Positions 2,537 through 42,010 of a stretch of 43,028 nt of DNA are shown piece after piece; the stretch's first letter is position 1; each line of letters starts with the position of its first letter. The translations under genes and the position numbers were made by a program. The DNA comes from a virus, in the IMG/VR virus record IMGVR_UViG_3300017527_000281, positions 1-43,028 of that record; one strand, 5' to 3'. The notes beneath the pieces are model-generated. The model was not told the DNA's origin. It did no database searches and saw only the letters and a program-made list of their open reading frames with translations.

Positions 2537-4291
2537 CTACTTCCTGAACATCCGCACGAGTGACGCGACGAGCCGCCCCACCGGCTCAAGCGTCAGGGCC
2601 GTTGCAACCGCCCGCCACGACTGATCATACACCGTGTCATCGTTGACCAGCACCCGAATGCGGATCAGGTCGCCGATGGGATCGGGGTCTGGGTCCGGGT
2701 CTGGGTCTGGGTCCGGGTCGGGTGGTTCGGGTTCTACCACGTCGCCCTCGACCTCTACCAGCAGGTCGTCCCAGTGCGAATGGGCAGGGTTTGCAAAGCG
2801 CTTGCGCAAGTGCAGCATCGCCCATACCCGGCTGCCGGCCGAGGTGACGACCGGGGACCACAGCTGCTCCCAGTGCCCATCACTGGTGTCCGATTGCCAG
2901 TCCATCCCCCATTCAGCGAGTGCGTCCAGTGCGCCCGTGAATCCCTCCCCGCTGGGGAAGACCTCGATCGGCCCTTCGCCGGGGTCGGTCACGGCAATAC
3001 CCAACCGTGTCCCATAGCCAGAGTTGGCGGCGTCCTGTGCCATCGTCCACACACTCGCGCGGATCTTTTCCCCGGGCGCAACGTTGACCGGGAACACAAT
3101 GCACGCCTCGAGCGTCGAATACATAGAGAACATTCCCGCCGCGTTCGGCGCTGTGCGGATGTGCGGGGTCAGTCGCCGATCGCATTCGGGCTGCACAAGC
3201 TGCCCTGCGCTCTGGTTGATGTCGTGCTCAAACAAGAGCACCGCATCCCCAAGATGCCCGTTCCCCAGGGGCAGCGTGACCTCCCCAATCCCGTGCCAAT
3301 CATAAAAGCCTTGATCCATAGACGTCCTTGCGTACTCGTTCCAGCTCACTGGTTCCTCCTCTGGTGGTTCTGGTTCAGGCGGCTCCGGTTCGGGCGGCTC
3401 GGGTTCCGTGTCTGTCCACGTGTACCCAATGTCAACCGCCTGCCTAAAGTCCTCGACGACCGCGCCCTTACCTGCAATGCCCCACTGGTCATAGTTGGGG
3501 TAGCGGTACAGGCACGCGCAGCGGATCACGCGGTCGGGTTGGTCCTGGTTCCATTGGTTTACCTCGCGGCACATCTCGCGCACCCATCCCCGGTTTTCGT
3601 TGAGCCACGCGATGTCCTGGTCGGTCTCGGTGATGTAGGCCGGCACACCGGCGGGGACATAGTGCATCAGGTCGCGGTACACGCGGAAGTGGTAGTGCGC
3701 TCCTGTCAGCGGCGCGCCCATCGTCTGCTCGCTGGCGATCAGCGCCGGGTCTGCGCCGTGGGTGTAAGCGTGCAGCGTGACCCCATCATAGCCCCCGTCG
3801 AGGAACTGCAGGACCGCGCCAAAGTAGCCCCGAAAGTCACCCGTCTCTGCGTTGTACGGTGCAATGCCCCCGACCAATACCTGCGCCCCCGGCGTCTCCG
3901 CCTTGATGCTGTCCCGGCACATCCTGAAACAATCGGCATAGTCCAGCGCGTAGATCGGGACTCCGTTGGGGCGTTCCTGTGAGTGGTTCGGTTCGTTGCC
4001 AATGATCCAGCCGTCCACGCCCCGCGAGTTCTTGACGTGCATCGCACAGGTGGCGGCAAAGTCGGGATAGCTGGCCTTCTCGGGGATCGTTCCGTTGGGA
4101 TGGTAGCCGTGGTTCAGCCGGACGAGGACGCCATAGCCGCGATCTTTGTACAGGCTATAGTCGCCCCCATCGATCCCGGCGATCTCTGTGAATACGATCC
4201 AGCCGGGGCGGTCCTCCATATTGTGCGCACCAGTCGAACTGTACCCGTCTCGTATGCTTCCCGCGTGGAATCCGTGCAGGTATTTGCTCAT
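2537..4291 (-). CDS. Modular glycoside-hydrolase-like protein, candidate lysin
   Basis: 584 residues. Residues 1-290 look like a clan GH-A TIM barrel: WIIGNEPN places a possible acid/base at E100 and YITETD a possible nucleophile at E222. A Pro-Glu linker (about 294-313) joins a beta-sandwich-like region (about 315-530) that may bind carbohydrate. An Asp-Pro linker (about 531-549) leads to a basic C-terminus. It lies between a LamG-like tail protein and two membrane proteins, so it may be the lytic enzyme or a virion-borne depolymerase. There is no signal peptide. The family number is uncertain, and no amidase, peptidase or lysozyme domain is seen here or elsewhere in the window. Confidence 0.65.
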   Translation of the reverse strand: MSKYLHGFHAGSIRDGYSSTGAHNMEDRPGWIVFTEIAGIDGGDYSLYKDRGYGVLVRLNHGYHPNGTIPEKASYPDFAATCAMHVKNSRGVDGWIIGNEPNHSQERPNGVPIYALDYADCFRMCRDSIKAETPGAQVLVGGIAPYNAETGDFRGYFGAVLQFLDGGYDGVTLHAYTHGADPALIASEQTMGAPLTGAHYHFRVYRDLMHYVPAGVPAYITETDQDIAWLNENRGWVREMCREVNQWNQDQPDRVIRCACLYRYPNYDQWGIAGKGAVVEDFRQAVDIGYTWTDTEPEPPEPEPPEPEPPEEEPVSWNEYARTSMDQGFYDWHGIGEVTLPLGNGHLGDAVLLFEHDINQSAGQLVQPECDRRLTPHIRTAPNAAGMFSMYSTLEACIVFPVNVAPGEKIRASVWTMAQDAANSGYGTRLGIAVTDPGEGPIEVFPSGEGFTGALDALAEWGMDWQSDTSDGHWEQLWSPVVTSAGSRVWAMLHLRKRFANPAHSHWDDLLVEVEGDVVEPEPPDPDPDPDPDPDPDPIGDLIRIRVLVNDDTVYDQSWRAVATALTLEPVGRLVASLVRMFRK

Positions 4292-33101: not shown

Positions 33102-33178
33102 GGGCCTGAGAATAGTTTCGACGCCGGTTAAGGCCGAATGGCATCCGGTGGACGCGGGGGCAGTACCCGCCAGGTCCA
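33102..33178 (+). ncRNA. Miniature tmRNA-like tRNA-like domain, copy 1
   Basis: The 77-base element has a 7-bp acceptor (GGGCCTG, 33102-33108, with CAGGTCC, 33171-33177) including G3-U70, a D-region AGAATAGTTTCGAC with no D-stem, a 6-bp middle arm (33122-33127 with 33145-33150), a 5-bp T-stem (GCGGG/CCCGC) and A at position 73. This is the plan of tmRNA's tRNA-like domain without the tag-coding region. The T-loop is GGCAGTA, not the usual TTCRANY. No encoded CCA follows. It lies in the 33047-33222 gap, which has no gene. Confidence 0.55.
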
Positions 33179-33222
33179 TTGGTAACATTGAACAGGCAAT
33201 AGCAGACAAGGAGGAAACAGAG

Positions 33223-33576
33223 ATGGACTGCAACGAATTGACAGCACTGGCGGAACGATTCCCAGGCGCGACGCTGGCAGAGATCGCCGCGCTGTTGTCG
33301 GGGAATGTCACCGATGATCCGGGTCCGTGGCGACTCGGGCAGGCATACCACATCCGCACCGTAACGAACTACTGGATCGGGCGGCTCGTGTCTGTTAGCA
33401 ATCAAGAGTTGGTACTGGAGGACGCGACGTGGATCGCAAGCACCGGGCACTTCTCGGACTTTTTCAGCGACGGCCCGGACGAATGCGAACCTGTGGACGG
33501 ACCCGTGATCGTCGGGCGCGGATCGATCGTAGACGCGCAGCTCTGGACGATCCAGATCCCGAGGGCACAGAAATGA
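33223..33576 (+). CDS. Hypothetical protein, 117 aa
   Basis: The ATG at 33223 has AGGAGG 8 bases upstream; an earlier in-frame start lies inside the tRNA-like element and is less likely. MDCNELTALAERFPGATLAEIAALLSGNVTDD is helical, followed by a beta region (AYHIRTVTNYWIGRLVSVSNQELVLEDATWIASTGHFSDFFSDG). The pattern resembles short phage proteins with SH3-like or beta-barrel cores that are found beside replication genes. The function is unknown. The gene ends in ATGA overlap with the SR-repeat ORF. Confidence 0.6.
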   Translation: MDCNELTALAERFPGATLAEIAALLSGNVTDDPGPWRLGQAYHIRTVTNYWIGRLVSVSNQELVLEDATWIASTGHFSDFFSDGPDECEPVDGPVIVGRGSIVDAQLWTIQIPRAQK

Positions 33577-33791
33577 ACGCAGCGATTGCTCGGACTGGGT
33601 ATGATCAGTCGCGGTCGCGGTCGCGGTCGGGGTCGTGGTCGCGGTCGGGGCCGTGGTCGCGGTCGCGGTCGCGGTCGCGGTCGCGGTCGGGGTCGTGGTC
33701 GTGGTCGCGGTCGGGGTCGTGGTCGTGGTCGTGGTCGGGGTCGCGGTCGGGGTCGTGGTCGGGGTCGCGGTCGGGGTCGGGGCCGTGGTAA
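33573..33791 (+). CDS. Ser-(Arg/Gly/Trp) dipeptide repeat protein
   Basis: 72 residues: MNAAIARTGYDQ followed by 30 dipeptides. The second residue of each is Arg, Gly or Trp (two dipeptides start with Pro), set by the variable base of a TCGNGG hexamer. The ATG overlaps the preceding stop (ATGA) and has GAGGGCACAG upstream, which favours this frame over the Gly-Arg and Val-Ala frames also open through the array. The product is strongly basic and could bind RNA or DNA in a disordered form, like RS/RGG tails. It could also be only a by-product of the repeat. Confidence 0.5.
   Translation: MNAAIARTGYDQSRSRSRSGSWSRSGPWSRSRSRSRSRSGSWSWSRSGSWSWSWSGSRSGSWSGSRSGSGPW
33609..33788. repeat. TCGNGG hexamer array, 30 units
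   Basis: There are thirty consecutive 6-base units with the pattern TCGNGG, in which N is C, G or T (never A); two units begin CCG. All frames on both strands stay open for long stretches. The unit is a multiple of 3, in contrast to the 5-base array near 1.7 kb. Confidence 0.95.
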
Positions 33792-33800
33792 CACTTTACA

Positions 33801-33964
33801 AGTTGATAACGGTGCGCCCGTCGGGGACGGTGCGCAGCAAGCGTGGCGGGTAACGAGGCGTTGCTGTCCTGGTCGCAACCGCCCGCACCGTTTCAAGCCT
33901 GCGCTGGTCGAAGGCTCACGCTCAGTGCGTGGGGTAGGCAACATCTAGGCCAGCGCGGGTTTTC
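33801..33964 (+). ncRNA. Structured RNA element, copy 1
   Basis: AACGGTGCG (33808-33816) pairs with CGCACCGTT (33884-33892); GCCTGCGCTGG (33897-33907) pairs with CCAGCGCGGGT (33950-33960) with two GU pairs, followed by TTTT. The same two stems occur in copy 2 with different interiors. Inside are smaller stems, for example AGCAA/TTGCT and CACGC/GCGTG. The second stem plus T run could end transcription. No protein gene is credible here. Confidence 0.55.
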
Positions 33965-34406: not shown

Positions 34407-34413
34407 CACCGTC

Positions 34414-34489
34414 GGGCCTGGAAATGGTTTCGACCTCCCGCAACGCCAAGCGCGAGCGGGGGACATCGGTTCGATTCCGATCAGGTCCA
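34414..34489 (+). ncRNA. Miniature tmRNA-like tRNA-like domain, copy 2
   Basis: The 76-base element has acceptor GGGCCTG (34414-34420)/CAGGTCC (34482-34488) with G3-U70 and A at position 73, D-region GAAATGGTTTCGAC, a 7-bp middle arm (34435-34441 with 34456-34462), T-stem ATCGG/CCGAT and loop TTCGATT. The D-region matches tmRNA's GGxTTCGAC signature with the same 14-base spacing, and G3-U70 is the alanyl-tRNA synthetase identity pair. There is no tag ORF and no encoded CCA (CACT follows). It lies in a region without a gene. Confidence 0.65.
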
Positions 34490-34500
34490 CTAGCAGCACA

Positions 34501-34770
34501 TTGACAAGTTGATAACGGTGCGGCAGCGAGGGCAGCTCGTCACAGTGACGTAACCTGGGGAGACCTTGCGGGGCTCAAGAGACCCAATAGTAGGCCATCA
34601 GGTAACTGAGCGACCTGGCCCGCACCGTTTCATAGCCTGCGCTGCAAAACGCCACCAATGGCAGGGTGGACGAATAGGGATCGCCTTCCCTACGTACTCG
34701 GAAAGCCCTATGTACGGGATCGGTGCATAGGGACAAGGGGTCCGGTTCGAACCCGGTGCGCAGCGCGGGC
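34501..34770 (+). ncRNA. Structured RNA element, copy 2
   Basis: AACGGTGCGG (34514-34523) pairs with CCGCACCGTT (34620-34629); GCCTGCGCTGC (34635-34645) pairs with GCAGCGCGGGC (34760-34770). Compared with copy 1, G-U changes to G-C at the base and G-C changes to C-G at the top of the second stem, so pairing is kept by compensatory change. A T-arm-like hairpin (CCGG TTCGAAC CCGG, 34742-34756) lies just inside the second stem. The interior of the first stem is different from copy 1. No gene lies in 34490-34802. Confidence 0.55.
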
Positions 34771-35200: not shown

Positions 35201-35341
35201 CAGAAGTACAAGCCGTCCCAACGGCTCATAGACAGCGAGGCTGATCCGCTCCCTTGTGAGGGTCGGTGGTCGTGTTTGGTGCAAGCCTCGCTCGCCTATC
35301 GACCTTGGGCCGACCTTCACAAGAGCGCGGATCTTTGTTTT
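35201..35341 (+). promoter_or_regulatory. Structured leader with terminator-like hairpin
   Basis: A small hairpin (AGCCGT/ACGGCT, 35211-35226) is followed by two helices: A, 35234-35242 with 35284-35292 (9 perfect pairs), and B, 35243-35266 with 35310-35333 (21 Watson-Crick pairs, one GU, two mismatches). B is followed by TTTGTTTT, as in an intrinsic terminator. A and B cross in order, so they form a pseudoknot or exclude each other. The ribosome site follows at 35342. An attenuator or RNA switch is inferred. Confidence 0.65.
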
Positions 35342-35357
35342 AGGAGGAGTCGAGAGA

Positions 35358-37682
35358 ATGAACCCGTATCAGGAGTTTCTCAAGTCCAAGATTCTGATGG
35401 TACCGCCAAAAGGAAAAGAGGTAGACCCAAACGACATCCACCCGCTGTTGTTCCCTTTTCAGCGTGATGTCACCACATGGTCAATTCGCAAGGGACGCGC
35501 TGCCGTGTTTCTGGACACAGGACTCGGAAAGACCTTTGTCCAGCTTGAGTGGGCGCGGCTGATAGGAGAAAATACGCTCATCATTGCGCCGCTATCTGTG
35601 TCCCGGCAGACTGTGCGAGAAGCGCAAAAGATCGATCTCGATGTTCGGTATGTTCGGGGAATGGACGAAATGGACCCCAACCACAAACTGTGGATCACCA
35701 ACTATGAGATGGCAGAGCATTTTGACATGTCGCAGTTTGGCGCCGTGGTGCTGGATGAGTCGAGCATACTCAAGGCCATCAACAGCAAAACTCGCAAGCG
35801 CCTGACAGAAACCTGCCAAGTCATACCCTATCGGCTGTGTTGCACCGCTACTCCTGCACCTAATGATTACATCGAGATCGGCAATCATGCTCAATTCCTG
35901 GGCATTGCCTCCCAGTCTGAAATGTTGGCGATGTTTTTCATCAATGCCAATAAAGAGCACACCTATACCTATGGCGGCAAGACCTATCACCGCAAGGGCA
36001 GCAACAAGGGCGGGCAGGAGTGGCGGCTCAAGCATCACGGAGAGCAAGCGTTTTTCCGCTGGCTGTCCACCTGGGCAATCACGATGACAAAGCCCTCTGA
36101 CCTCGGCTACGATGATGATGGATTCATTTTGCCGCCCTTGAATATCATCCCCACATTTGTCCAGATTGACAACTATGAGGCTGACGATCAACTATTCTTT
36201 ACACATCTGAAAGGCATCAAACACAGATCCCAGGTACGCCGGGATACGTTACCACAACGGCTCGAAGTGCTGGCAGAGCTGGTCAACAACTCGGACGAAC
36301 AGTGGATTATATGGGCGGGGCTGAACGAGGAAAGCAAAGCCGCCACGGCCGCGATCGATGGCGCCGTAGAGGTACGCGGAGATCAGCCACCAGATTACAA
36401 GGCTCAGACCTTTGAGCAGTTCCAAGACGGCGAGGTCAAGGTGCTAGTCACCAAGACAAAGATCGGCGGGTTCGGCCTCAACATGCAGAATGCCCACAAC
36501 ATGGCATTTCTTGGGTTGTCCGATAGTTGGGAGAGCTACTATCAGGCTGTTCGCCGAGAGTGGAGATACCGACAGAAATATCCGGTCAACGTCCATATCA
36601 TTATGTCATCGCTTGAATCAGAGATATACCAGAACGTGATGCGCAAAGACGCAATGGCCGCACGGCTGCGGTCTGGTTTGGTTGAACAAATCAAAGAATA
36701 TGAGAAAGGGGAACTTGAGATGATAGACACAGAGCGCAGCATTTATGATGAGGACATTGTGCAAGGCGAAAACTGGACCGCGATGCTAGGCGATTCCTGT
36801 AAGCGAATGGGAGAGATCGCAACAGACAGCATTGACTTGTCTGTGTACTCGCCCCCTTTTGCAGACCTGTACACATACACAGACTCAGAGCGTGACCTCG
36901 GCAACTGCAAAGATTGGGGCGAGTTCTTTGGACACTATGCCTACATCGTGCGGGAGCTGCTCAGAATCACCAAGCCGGGACGCTTGACCTGCTGTCACTG
37001 TATGGACATTCCCGCAATGATGCAAAAAGACGGCTGGATGGGCCTGAAAGACTTTTCCGGCGCTCTCATTCAGGCATACACCCAAGAGGGCTGGACGCTT
37101 CACGATCGAGTTGTTATTGACAAGAACCCGCAGGCGCAGGCTATCCGCACTCACTCCCACGGGCTGCTGTTCAAGACCCTGGACAAAGACTCGATCCGCT
37201 CTCACACTGCTATACCCGATCAGATACTTGTGTTCCGCAAGGATGGCGATAACCAGAATCCAGTACGCCCAGTCGAAAACGGCGATATGGATAATGAGGT
37301 CTGGATTCAGTGGGCGCGCCCGATCTGGTATGCCGCTGATTATACCCCGGCACAATTGCCCAATCCAGGCGGCGGCATCTCTGAGACGGGAACGCTGCAG
37401 TTCGGCAAGGCGCGGGGCACAGGAGACGAGAAGCACATCTGCCCACTGCAGCTCGGAACCATCGAGCGGTGCATCAAACTGTGGAGCAACCCCGGCGAGA
37501 CTGTTTTCAGCCCGTTCGCCGGCATTGGCAGTGAGGGATACCAGGCTTTGAGCTTTGGGCGCAAGTTCATCGGGATCGAATTGAAACCGTCTTACTTTGC
37601 GATTATGCTGGAGAATCTCAACAAGTCTGAAATCAAAGCCAATACGCCTGACCTGTTCTCCTTGGCAGGGATTGCGGTATGA
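35358..37682 (+). CDS. SNF2-type helicase/DNA methyltransferase fusion
   Basis: 774 residues; ATG with TAGGAGGAG upstream. Helicase part: DTGLGKT (53-59, Walker A), VLDES (131-135, motif II), TATPAPND (163-170, motif III), KTKIGGFGLNMQNAH (366-380, motif V) and QAVRREWRYRQ (396-406, motif VI). Methyltransferase part: VYSPPF (496-501, catalytic motif IV) precedes FAGIGSEG (720-727, SAM motif I) and FIGIELKPSYF, the beta-class order of N6-adenine/N4-cytosine enzymes. The fusion probably modifies DNA while remodelling it, for replication or restriction evasion. The end overlaps the next gene by ATGA. Confidence 0.88.
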   Translation: MNPYQEFLKSKILMVPPKGKEVDPNDIHPLLFPFQRDVTTWSIRKGRAAVFLDTGLGKTFVQLEWARLIGENTLIIAPLSVSRQTVREAQKIDLDVRYVRGMDEMDPNHKLWITNYEMAEHFDMSQFGAVVLDESSILKAINSKTRKRLTETCQVIPYRLCCTATPAPNDYIEIGNHAQFLGIASQSEMLAMFFINANKEHTYTYGGKTYHRKGSNKGGQEWRLKHHGEQAFFRWLSTWAITMTKPSDLGYDDDGFILPPLNIIPTFVQIDNYEADDQLFFTHLKGIKHRSQVRRDTLPQRLEVLAELVNNSDEQWIIWAGLNEESKAATAAIDGAVEVRGDQPPDYKAQTFEQFQDGEVKVLVTKTKIGGFGLNMQNAHNMAFLGLSDSWESYYQAVRREWRYRQKYPVNVHIIMSSLESEIYQNVMRKDAMAARLRSGLVEQIKEYEKGELEMIDTERSIYDEDIVQGENWTAMLGDSCKRMGEIATDSIDLSVYSPPFADLYTYTDSERDLGNCKDWGEFFGHYAYIVRELLRITKPGRLTCCHCMDIPAMMQKDGWMGLKDFSGALIQAYTQEGWTLHDRVVIDKNPQAQAIRTHSHGLLFKTLDKDSIRSHTAIPDQILVFRKDGDNQNPVRPVENGDMDNEVWIQWARPIWYAADYTPAQLPNPGGGISETGTLQFGKARGTGDEKHICPLQLGTIERCIKLWSNPGETVFSPFAGIGSEGYQALSFGRKFIGIELKPSYFAIMLENLNKSEIKANTPDLFSLAGIAV

Positions 37683-38455
37683 GAAAATACGATCTGCCCG
37701 TTGATATGATTTTCAGCATCACGCCTACAGACCCCCTTGCCTTTATGGCGGCGCGAATGGGGTTCTTGATTGGCACAAACAGCGGGCAGAAATGTCTGGT
37801 GGAACGCCCAGAACATTATACATGGGCATTCCCTATTTCTTTCATAGACAATGAATTCAAGAAGTACGACCACGATGCACATATGGCAGCAATCAAGCAG
37901 CATCGGCCCAAATATGCCACTGTGCGAGATGCAATGACCTCAGTGCAATGCTGTCGCGCAGGGATTGAGCATTTTGACCTTGACATCATCCTGGCGTGGG
38001 CTGAGGAAGTAGAGCAGTATGCCGAGAACGTGATAGTCATTCCCAAGTGGGATTGTTTGGCAGAAATTCCAGAACGATTCATCCTGGGATACTCGATACC
38101 ATCACGCTATGCTGGAACCCCTCTCCCTTTTGAGATGTTCAGAGGCCGAAAGATTCACCTGCTCGGCGGTAGTTGGAAAAAGCAACTCAAATACCTGCAA
38201 TTTGCCAAAGATGACATCGTAAGCCTGGACAATAACAATCTCTGGAAATGCTCAGTGTATGGGGGATTCGACTGGCCCGATGGCAAGAAGGGATCGCTCC
38301 ATGATCTAGGAATCACAGAACTAACTAGCCCGATGTATGCCAGCGTAGCAATGAGTCTCGGGCATATCGCCACAAAGCTACATCAACTCTACAACGAACC
38401 ACAAAAATCAATCGAATTCGCAGTACAACTACCAGGAATGGAGAAAGTGACATGA
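37679..38455 (+). CDS. DpdA-like DNA transglycosylase (candidate)
   Basis: 258 residues. IVIPKWDCLAEIPERFILGYSIPSRYAGTPLPFEMF followed by RGRKIHLLGGSWKKQLKYLQFAKDDIVSLD resembles phage DpdA/TGT-like proteins (TIM barrel), which exchange guanine in DNA for a 7-deazaguanine base. DxxILAWAEEVEQYAENV is another barrel block. The length (258) is shorter than DpdA1. The following gene is a YhhQ-type queuosine-precursor transporter, which makes this function more likely. It overlaps both neighbours. Tests of the active site and of 7-deazaguanine in the virion DNA are lacking. Confidence 0.6.
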   Translation: MRKYDLPVDMIFSITPTDPLAFMAARMGFLIGTNSGQKCLVERPEHYTWAFPISFIDNEFKKYDHDAHMAAIKQHRPKYATVRDAMTSVQCCRAGIEHFDLDIILAWAEEVEQYAENVIVIPKWDCLAEIPERFILGYSIPSRYAGTPLPFEMFRGRKIHLLGGSWKKQLKYLQFAKDDIVSLDNNNLWKCSVYGGFDWPDGKKGSLHDLGITELTSPMYASVAMSLGHIATKLHQLYNEPQKSIEFAVQLPGMEKVT

Positions 38456-39030
38456 TTGTAATTTGTGCATACATCGCCGCTCAGATGTTTTCAGACATTA
38501 TGAGCCTCAAGATAGTCTCGTTATTTGGTCTTTCAATGGACGCGGGAACCCTGATCTATCCCATCACGTTCACGCTCCGCGATTTGGTCCACAAGACATT
38601 AGGCAAACAGAAAGCACGGCAGCTCATTGTTGTCGCCGCCGCCATCAATGTCGTGATGGCATTGCTCTTTTGGGTAACAAGCATCCTGCCATACGACTTG
38701 GGCGCAGGACCACAACCAGATTGGGATAGCGTTCTCGCTCCTGTATGGCGCATCGTTGTGGCTTCGATTGTGGCCGAAGTGCTCAGTGAGTTTCTGGACA
38801 CAGAAATGTATCACCTGTGGGTCACAAAGATCACGCAGCGATACCAGTGGATGCGCGTGTTGGTCAGTAATACAGTTTCGGTTCCTGTTGACAGCCTGGT
38901 CTTTTGCTGGATCGCTTTTGGTGGCATCCTGCCGGCAGCTATCGTGTGGGCAATTGTGTGGGCCAATGTTCTGCTCAAGGGTGCCTGCACTCTGCTTTCA
39001 TTACCTATGATCTACGCAGTCAAAGAGTAA
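38452..39030 (+). CDS. YhhQ/QPTR-type queuosine-precursor transporter
   Basis: 192 residues, ATGA overlap with the previous gene. FSDIMSLKIVSLFGLSMDAGTLIYPITFTLRDLVHKTLGKQKAR matches the COG1738 (YhhQ, Vut) signature. About six hydrophobic segments (near 2-20, 32-46, 57-80, 95-115, 140-158, 162-185) alternate with short loops; a DTEMYHLW and VTKITQRY loop follow the fourth. It should import preQ0, preQ1 or queuine into the cell. The coupling with a DpdA-like gene suggests supply of 7-deazaguanine for phage DNA or for tRNA modification. Confidence 0.8.
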   Translation: MIVICAYIAAQMFSDIMSLKIVSLFGLSMDAGTLIYPITFTLRDLVHKTLGKQKARQLIVVAAAINVVMALLFWVTSILPYDLGAGPQPDWDSVLAPVWRIVVASIVAEVLSEFLDTEMYHLWVTKITQRYQWMRVLVSNTVSVPVDSLVFCWIAFGGILPAAIVWAIVWANVLLKGACTLLSLPMIYAVKE

Positions 39031-40867: not shown

Positions 40868-41316
40868 CTCTCCTAGCCCTAGACGCCAGCACAACCGCCG
40901 TGGGGTGGGCGCTGTTTGACGACGGTGACTACCGCGAGTCGGGCGTGTACGTGCCGGACGGCGATGACTGGGTAGAGCGGGTGATCAACATTGACCGCTG
41001 GCTGTACAACCTGTGCCTCGAGTTCGACGCGGTAGGCTACGAGATCGCCACAGGCAACCGGGGGAATATGGCAACCAACCGGAAACTAGGCGCGGTAGAG
41101 TTTGTGGTGCGCCAGTTCTGCAAGCTGCAGCATATGGAGCTGACCACCGTCACCGCGTCACAAGTCAAGGCGACGGGATGTCACAAGAACGCACCGTGGG
41201 TAGCGACGACGATCAAGCGGGGCCGGTTCCCCGAGGCCGACGTGGTGGGTGGCGACGAGGCCGACGCGATCGGCGTGGGCCTGGCGTGCTGGGGGAAGGT
41301 GAGGGCCAATGTCTGA
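40864..41316 (+). CDS. RuvC-like Holliday junction resolvase
   Basis: 150 residues from a GTG. LLALDASTTAVGWALFD is motif I (D7), FDAVGYEIATG supplies the second acidic residue, NRKLGAVEFVVRQF is the helix block, and ASQVKATGCHKN with DEADAIGVGLACW the last acidic pair. This is the RNase H-fold RuvC-type resolvase of phages, which cuts branched DNA before packaging. Length is typical. Confidence 0.75.
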   Translation: MTLLALDASTTAVGWALFDDGDYRESGVYVPDGDDWVERVINIDRWLYNLCLEFDAVGYEIATGNRGNMATNRKLGAVEFVVRQFCKLQHMELTTVTASQVKATGCHKNAPWVATTIKRGRFPEADVVGGDEADAIGVGLACWGKVRANV

Positions 41317-42010
41317 AATGATCAGTTTCGGTGCTGGCGTCAATAGCGTGGCGATGACCATTATGCTCGTGAACGACGGGTGGCGTGGCCCGATCGTGTT
41401 TGCGGACACCGGCGGGGAATGGCCTGAGACGTACTGCTATATCCGCTACTTTGAGCGGGAATGGTTGGGACCGAGGGGGTTGGAGATCACGCGACTGTCG
41501 CCAGGGTCGGAATGGCACGGGAAACGCGCGCAGGTGACGCTAGAGCAGTACTGTCTCGACCATGGTATTGTGCCATTGCTGGCGATGCGCTGGTGTACTC
41601 AGGCGTGGAAACAGCGGCCCGTCACAAAATGGGCGGGGGCCATGGTGCGCCTAGTGGGGCTGTCTGCCAGTGAACCGCGCCGCGCCGCACGGCAGGAGCC
41701 TGGCGTGCGCTTGCCGCTATTTGAGGAGTGTATCACCCGCGAGGAGTGCCAGCGCATCATCGCACGCGAGGGACTGGACTATCCGATCAAGTCAGGCTGT
41801 TTTTTCTGCCCTGGTCAACCGCTGGCGGCGTGGCGGCGATTGTACCACGAACACCCGGACCTATACGAGCGGGCGATCGCGCTTGAGGATAACGCCACGA
41901 CCGCGCTAGATCCTCACGGCATCAGCCTCCGAGAGCACGCCCGCCGCCGCTGGGAGGGGCAGATGCAGATGGATCTGAGTGCATGGATACCGTGTCTGTG
42001 TACGCTGTAA
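41309..42010 (+). CDS. PAPS-reductase-like (DndC-like) phage protein
   Basis: 233 residues. ISFGAGVNSVAMTIML takes the place of the PP-loop (normally SGGxDS), followed by IVFADTGGEWPETYCYI, the typical block of phage PAPS reductase/DndC-like proteins. RWCTQAWKQRPV, SGCFFCPGQP (two Cys) and ASEPRR fit the group, which has four Cys. An ATP-pyrophosphatase activity is possible; role unknown. In phages it may act in DNA modification or nucleotide metabolism. Overlaps the resolvase gene by 8 bases. Confidence 0.7.
   Translation: MSEMISFGAGVNSVAMTIMLVNDGWRGPIVFADTGGEWPETYCYIRYFEREWLGPRGLEITRLSPGSEWHGKRAQVTLEQYCLDHGIVPLLAMRWCTQAWKQRPVTKWAGAMVRLVGLSASEPRRAARQEPGVRLPLFEECITREECQRIIAREGLDYPIKSGCFFCPGQPLAAWRRLYHEHPDLYERAIALEDNATTALDPHGISLREHARRRWEGQMQMDLSAWIPCLCTL

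Follow-up and report, generated by a model that had tools for sequence, protein, structure and literature searches.

The locus examined here raises a simple question: what is encoded by a run of hexamers in which one base varies, and what keeps such a run in a phage genome? The window, i.e., the whole analysed stretch of 43,028 nucleotides of viral DNA (IMG/VR record IMGVR_UViG_3300017527_000281), contains 30 TCGNGG hexamers at positions 33609-33788 of the plus strand.

The hexamer array and its reading frame

The array reported in an earlier note on this DNA is real: the count of 30 units stands, TRF calls a repeat at 33608-33779 with a period of 6 and 28.7 copies, and the chance expectation for a run of at least five units is 5e-10, given the base composition and both strands of the window. 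The first hexamer position is T in 28 units and C in two, the latter reading CCG (proline). The variable place N is C in 12 units, G in 9, T in 9 and A in none; the remaining four positions are invariant in all 30. The open reading frame that holds the array, gene B, specifies a 72-residue product with 28 Ser, 13 Arg, 10 Gly, 9 Trp and 2 Pro among its residues, and a single acidic one. Its ATG overlaps the TGA of an upstream gene, gene A. The features of the locus are as follows:

33209..33214, plus strand: AGGAGG ribosome-binding site of gene A, 8 nt 5' of its ATG (direct reading)
33223..33576, plus strand: gene A, a predicted Sm-like protein of 117 aa, stop included (relatives, AlphaFold2, fold matches)
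33573..33576, plus strand: ATGA, overlap of the gene A stop and the gene B start (direct reading, relatives)
33573..33791, plus strand: gene B, Ser-X repeat protein of 72 aa, stop included (open reading frame, relatives)
33573..33608, plus strand: unique N-terminal codons of gene B, MNAAIARTGYDQ (motif conserved among relatives)
33609..33788, plus strand: array (Ser-Arg/Gly/Trp)n of 30 units, two of them Pro-Trp (TRF, direct reading)

The window alone offers three plausible frames, namely (Ser-X)n, an Arg-Gly (RG) frame opening at the ATG at 33601 and a minus-strand Pro-Arg (PR) frame. Either of the last two might be thought the true product, since in both the variable base falls on a wobble position, where its changes are synonymous in the window. 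The first search of viral contigs with gene A returned three relatives (L002, L003 and L004), and all three carry an open reading frame directly 3' of gene A with similar starts (MIQSVLRTGFDW, MNQAILRTGFDQ and MNAAILRDGYER, respectively). After the start motif, serine alternates in these frames with Trp, Arg, Gly or Lys. The serine codon is AGC in L002, TCA in L003 and TCG in L004 as well as in the window; as TCN and AGC codons lie more than one change apart, it is the protein that is kept. The +1 RG frame becomes His-Gly/Gln-Gly, Leu-Gly or Ala-Gly in the relatives and the PR frame meets stops where serine is TCA, while Ser-X persists, so both frames were rejected and a product from either has a practically negligible probability. 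These comparisons of sequence show (Ser-X)n to be the real coding frame of the array, in agreement with the coupled Ser-(Arg/Gly/Trp) frame proposed earlier.

A two-gene unit in many phages

The earlier note, right about the frame, had overlooked the Sm-like gene upstream and the wide occurrence of the pair. An alignment query with gene A gave 237 viral relatives, of which the best 80 were kept (79 loci); four further relatives were found in bacterial metagenome-assembled genomes. In all, 86 gene A loci were examined, among them the window and one GenBank phage, with the viral relatives of the query limited to those best 80 of 237. Six that repeat another array and two that end within 150 nt were dropped, leaving 78 testable loci. 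A Ser-X array frame stands behind gene A in 74 of these 78, the four without it being L039, L063, L076 and L086 (L063 and L076 are close relatives). In the relatives, gene B opens with a short conserved stretch of about 12 residues and continues as (Ser-X)n, where Trp, Arg or Gly fills most X places. The -4 overlap of the two genes recurs in 23 of the 37 relatives with a recognised start, i.e., those whose gene B start fitted a simple motif.

The viral contigs were also scanned independently of gene A with the patterns (TCGNGG)8 and (AGCNGG)7. Arrays were called mixed if they held at least two each of Trp, Arg and Gly, and uniform if at least 90% of X was one residue; intermediate arrays and further arrays less than 600 nt from a previous one were excluded, as were 31 mixed and 7 uniform arrays closer than 350 nt to a contig edge. 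Among the matches listed, a Sm-like gene lies directly upstream of 86 of 105 mixed arrays, gene A in 65 and a second family, A', in 21. The other 19 of the 105 listed mixed arrays have no adjoining partner; 11 of these have one elsewhere on the locus and 8 have none. Uniform arrays of the SRSR or SWSW kind have a Sm-like gene of either family in 0 of 70 cases among the matches listed, and Fisher's test on this contrast gives 1.3e-31, a value that serves as a guide only, the loci not being independent. Family A' was defined from genes upstream of arrays, 19 proteins building the profile that gave the 21 counted, and its share of the 86 is circular for this reason. Counted for gene A only, the contrast is 65 of 105 mixed versus 0 of 70 uniform arrays among the matches listed. 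An independent check, although the pattern scan had already picked up 3 of its 12 contigs, came from a reverse search with one A' protein: it yielded 12 loci, and an array is present in 10 of the 11 testable ones. Of the other two loci, L363 ends too soon to be counted, and L364 has another gene in place of the array; by eye, that gene reads like a single-strand binding protein.

The notion that the array is a neutral microsatellite without a product draws on the fact that hexamer slippage does occur and on the uniform arrays without a Sm-like gene. We consider it highly improbable, given a start motif conserved through synonymous change, serine retained in spite of switches between codon families, and the linkage of arrays with Sm-like genes. 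The contigs compared show both the conservation of the array and its linkage to two families of predicted Sm-like proteins. A and B form a widespread two-gene unit, present across many unrelated phages.

Uniform (AGCAGG, AGCCGG or AGCTGG)n arrays at many of the loci L208-L326 form a microsatellite-like background, which among the matches listed never adjoins a Sm-like gene. Two or three nearby copies of gene B, which start separately and differ in unit order, occur in L098, L144, L161, L261 and L268. Gene A and helicase searches returned no close relatives of the window phage, and a search of plasmids gave no match. In the searches made, the only GenBank phage records with relatives of gene A or A' were MW202573 and MW202825, both metagenome phages. 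MW202825.1 (L352) has an unannotated A' Sm-like gene at 3001-3255, followed by a looser Ser-X frame.

Among ten hand-picked proteins encoded near the unit, eight had a family match: a single-strand binding protein (L032), a clamp loader (L024), SNF2 (L038 and L041), ResIII (L067) and AAA_23 of the RecF/SbcC type (L013 and L047) were seen, together with a gp32-like neighbour in L003 just below the Pfam cut-off; the neighbours in L031 and L066 had no family match. Downstream of the unit in the window, a single frame at 35256-37679 on the plus strand combines a SNF2-type helicase with an N6/N4 DNA methylase. This setting bears on the proposal of a membrane-active or lysis function for gene B, as a peptide rich in Trp and Arg and regulated by gene A. 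A composition of 13 Arg and 9 Trp, with a single acidic residue among 72, would suit such a peptide, and MW202825 has a lysozyme gene about 1.2 kb beyond A', on the opposite strand. The neighbours that can be named, however, belong to DNA replication and recombination and not to lysis, and a Sm-like partner suggests nucleic acid, which makes the proposal rather unlikely.

Gene A and family A' are predicted Sm-like proteins

The AlphaFold2 model of gene A, built from a 77-sequence input, has a mean pLDDT of 91.9. All 50 VIA (structure comparison) matches listed are Sm/LSm, snRNP or spliceosome entries with Z from 8.8 to 10.0, including 1jri_B (Z 10.0, 2.6 A over 70 aa) and 1i8f_G (Z 9.9, 1.5 A over 64 aa). 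Foldseek agrees, its best match being 4c92_D (E 6e-4), and among viral models it finds a BFVD entry named DUF6948 (E 2.6e-4). The model has the short helix and bent five-strand barrel of the Sm/LSm fold. Searches by sequence gave no Pfam, PHROGs or NCBIfam family for gene A, no Sm or Hfq Pfam profile for any of 77 family members, no Sm match in the PDB at E<=1 and no convincing defence family in PADLOC (best E 0.013). The region around R99 resembles the Sm2 motif, by eye only. The Sm/LSm fold of gene A is confidently predicted from the model, placed by fold and by no sequence profile, and from that fold we infer a putative ring-type nucleic-acid binder.

The model of family A' is weaker (pLDDT 76.5, nine sequences); it too has the Sm fold, and its fold matches are Sm/LSm chains with Z of 9.8-11.2 (1i8f_C at 1.5 A over 65 aa). 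A profile comparison of A' with A by hhalign gave E 4.7e-7 over 42 columns.

Codon pattern of the arrays

For the codon counts, 17 of the 86 gene A loci were dropped because their arrays were duplicates, shorter than 8 units or too irregular, which left 69 arrays. Their 1816 units comprise 600 Arg, 516 Trp, 506 Gly and 194 other X residues. Glycine is GGG in 490 of 506 cases and arginine is CGG or AGG in 571 of 600, as against 105 of 507 and 98 of 361, respectively, in gene A of the same loci. At the N-terminus of gene B, all six codons occur for a conserved Arg (27 sequences) and all four for a conserved Gly (28 sequences); this set was picked by a motif with these very residues, so that their conservation is not independent, but the codon spread is. 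One serine codon accounts for at least 95% in 54 of the 69 arrays, the major codon being TCG in 39, AGC in 11, TCA in 9, TCT in 9 and TCC in 1.

The earlier note had also stated that A is never used at the variable place. This holds in the window (0 of 30), where A is missing because the array is a CGG array, and fails as a rule: of 52 arrays with at least five CGG plus AGG codons, 19 are pure CGG, 22 pure AGG and 11 mixed. The 41 pure arrays compare with 0.65 expected if the two codons were independent. Exactly three NGG types occur in 50 of 64 arrays, with C and A at N excluding each other.

This exclusion weighs against the idea of a targeted mutator that, like a diversity-generating retroelement, diversifies the variable base. 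It is true that one base in six varies and that near-identical phages can differ there. A random N, however, would put both CGG and AGG in nearly all arrays, while 41 of 52 are pure; moreover, the number of units changes too, and nothing beyond slippage with selection is required. Mutation targeted at this base was rejected on CGG/AGG exclusivity, and we regard a mutator of any such kind as very unlikely.

A further possibility is selection on the codons or the nucleic acid itself, in which an NGG array would brake translation, tie up tRNAs or form a G-rich structure. The third base of X is G far beyond synonymous need, and it has changed synonymously in 25 units from 10 of 64 arrays, fewer than the 99 units from 24 of 64 arrays that have a second-base change. 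As for a structure, GG recurs every 6 nt. One publication reports that NGG codons, read by CCN-anticodon tRNAs, provoke peptidyl-tRNA drop-off early in genes (PMC12204400). That drop-off concerns the early coding region, while the NGG codons of the array start at codon 14. Serine is also kept across TCN and AGC codons, and a free NGG rule does not predict one Arg codon per array. Since amino-acid selection and exchange by themselves yield an equal NGG excess in the simulations described below, selection on codons appears unlikely.

How the array evolves

Phages that are about 97-99.8% alike outside the array nevertheless differ within it. L045 and L047 share nine units and then diverge (17 vs. 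31 units), and L077 and L078 have 35 and 13 units, an assembly error being possible in both pairs. More generally, metagenome assembly may mis-size repeats, and some contigs end inside arrays. In L330 and L332, whose arrays both number 38 units, two variable bases are the only differences; judged from the two sequences, first-base substitution may explain this as well as two indels do. The unit is a multiple of 3 bp and its copy number changes in frame, as in in-frame coding tandem repeats. Relatives carry mixed units that change in 6-bp steps, the opposite of the uniform units, or random change with frameshifts, against which the earlier note had set its variable-unit reading. Repeated four-unit words exceed those of shuffled arrays (z>2) in 17 of 55 arrays, with a mean z of 1.25.

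A simulation combined point mutation, exchange in 6-bp steps and selection for serine and for a minimum share of 15% (or 5%) for each of Trp, Arg and Gly. Exchange of whole units gave an NGG share of 0.61-0.71, short of the observed one, and exchange gated by identity of the core, our first idea, gave 0.47-0.48; both were rejected. With breakpoints at any base, the NGG share rose to 0.89-0.99, glycine became GGG in 34-39 of 40 simulated arrays, and CGG or AGG emerged as alternatives for arginine. At faster settings, one serine codon prevailed within an array and different ones between arrays. When the mix was not selected for, 37 of 40 arrays fell to one X residue, with NGG at 0.57, which speaks further against a neutral microsatellite; with only Arg and Gly selected, NGG was 0.47. 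The simulation departs from the data in one respect: TCC is the major serine codon in 5 to 11 of 40 simulated arrays vs. 1 of 69 real ones.

Tryptophan is encoded by TGG only. The NGG core would follow because Trp allows no other codon, any other third base beside T giving a stop or Cys. The tail would grow, shrink and be reshuffled by slippage or unequal exchange in 6-bp steps with breakpoints at any base. Such exchange would homogenise the serine codon and the GG of X and unlink the variable base from its core, while selection would retain serine and the mixture of Trp, Arg and Gly. The simulations support amino-acid selection for serine plus this mixture, with the order largely free. Since ordinary 6-bp slippage and amino-acid selection reproduce the pattern, no mutator is needed; a code-like pattern in DNA can come from amino-acid selection and repeat exchange.

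Neighbouring RNA-like elements and other features of the window

The array had been likened to a pentamer array elsewhere in the window as a second repeat with a fixed frame and variable positions. The parallel does not survive: the codon frame is lost from one 5-base unit to the next, and the pentamer array at 1631-1891 has stops in all three forward frames. It is a GCNNG-type array with an 85-bp higher repeat, interrupted twice by GGTAGGTATCATTCAGCGT.

Two structured copies lie at 33798-33906 and 34504-34644 (plus strand). ACAAGTTGATAACGGTGCG, 19 nt, is identical in both, and a stretch of 26-27 nt ending in AGCCTGCGCTG is 96% alike with one gap; their inserts differ. The array is absent at the second copy, as claimed earlier, although the missing piece is not the array alone but the whole two-gene unit, 33223-33791. 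Two elements at 33102-33180 and 34412-34490 (plus strand), which we take to resemble tRNA or tmRNA, begin with a common stretch of 22 nt (86% alike) and show acceptor-like pairing; neither was called by ARAGORN.

Just 3' of gene B, Rfam places a DUF3800-VIII RNA at 33893-33964 (plus strand) with 43.5 bits against a gathering score of 40.2. At the gathering threshold this RNA occurs at 0 of 59 other loci, where Rfam found one tRNA (in L070); a partnership of the unit with a structured RNA was rejected on this count, the RNA being found in the window only. L077 and L078 have a short motif, AAGCCTGCGCTNG, behind their gene B. The phage window further contains a Vut_1 transporter family gene (38452-39027) and a PAPS reductase-like gene (41309-42007), both on the plus strand.

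Proposed function of the unit

Taken together, the data make one reading probable on balance: most of gene B, in a phage Sm-like two-gene unit, consists of the array, which slippage and amino-acid selection have shaped. More tentatively, and somewhat short of probable, gene B may be a separate, basic, Trp-rich and disordered tail for the Sm-like ring. It would serve in trans as a basic, aromatic and probably disordered tail, with Trp and Arg as stickers that bind nucleic acid or a partner and Ser and Gly as spacers, and RNA or single-stranded DNA would be gathered at the replication and recombination machinery of the phage. The role of the tail is proposed by analogy with the C-terminal domain of Hfq.

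A more specific version, possible but in our view doubtful, is a two-component Sm nucleoprotein made of a conserved ring and a separate hypervariable Trp/Arg/Gly tail, on a serine backbone, that slippage deals anew between close relatives. The order of units would then be free or under diversifying selection, each phage having its own multivalent binding string. If true, this would be a nucleic-acid-gathering system of a kind not known elsewhere.

Comparison with known systems

PHROGs, NCBIfam and PADLOC gave no family for gene B. No paper with the term DUF6948 was found in the literature, and nothing was found on a Ser-X module or a Sm-like phage pair, as judged by titles and the openings of abstracts in a literature with few subscription journals. 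Gene A resembles the DUF6948 phage proteins in the Foldseek comparison, although Pfam does not assign it to DUF6948. The variable region of a diversity-generating retroelement changes to any base at template-adenine positions, whereas the arrays mostly use three of the four. With in-frame coding tandem repeats the array has in common a unit of a multiple of 3 bp and a copy number that varies between near-identical phages; unlike the usual ones, gene B balances three unit types, mostly with one codon each.

SmB, SmD1 and SmD3 of eukaryotes have RG-rich tails, and these proteins and the SR proteins set Arg-Gly or Arg-Ser dipeptides beside Sm or RNA-binding domains. The unit is alike in having Arg dipeptides near a Sm domain, and homology is not claimed; in gene B, however, Trp fills about one third of the X places, and the repeat forms a protein of its own, encoded by a phage.

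The A-B unit shares with Hfq and the archaeal and eukaryotic Sm-LSm rings a Sm fold, predicted for A, and a low-complexity partner region. The disordered C-terminal domain of E. coli Hfq is described as tuning the ring (PMC5606850), and the amyloid-like C-terminal region of Hfq as reshaping single-stranded DNA (PMC10392684). In contrast to these rings, the putative tail here has its own gene, which at its start overlaps that of the putative ring; its sequence is a strict Ser-alternating Trp/Arg/Gly repeat, and no Sm profile finds gene A. Sm-like proteins with low-complexity tails are thus known, and a separate tail gene written in three letters is new to us. In many uncultured phages, the unit thereby gives a conspicuous repeat a defined partner protein. 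It also provides a natural sticker-and-spacer series, with one backbone and three letters in many orders and lengths, for testing disordered tails with Sm rings.
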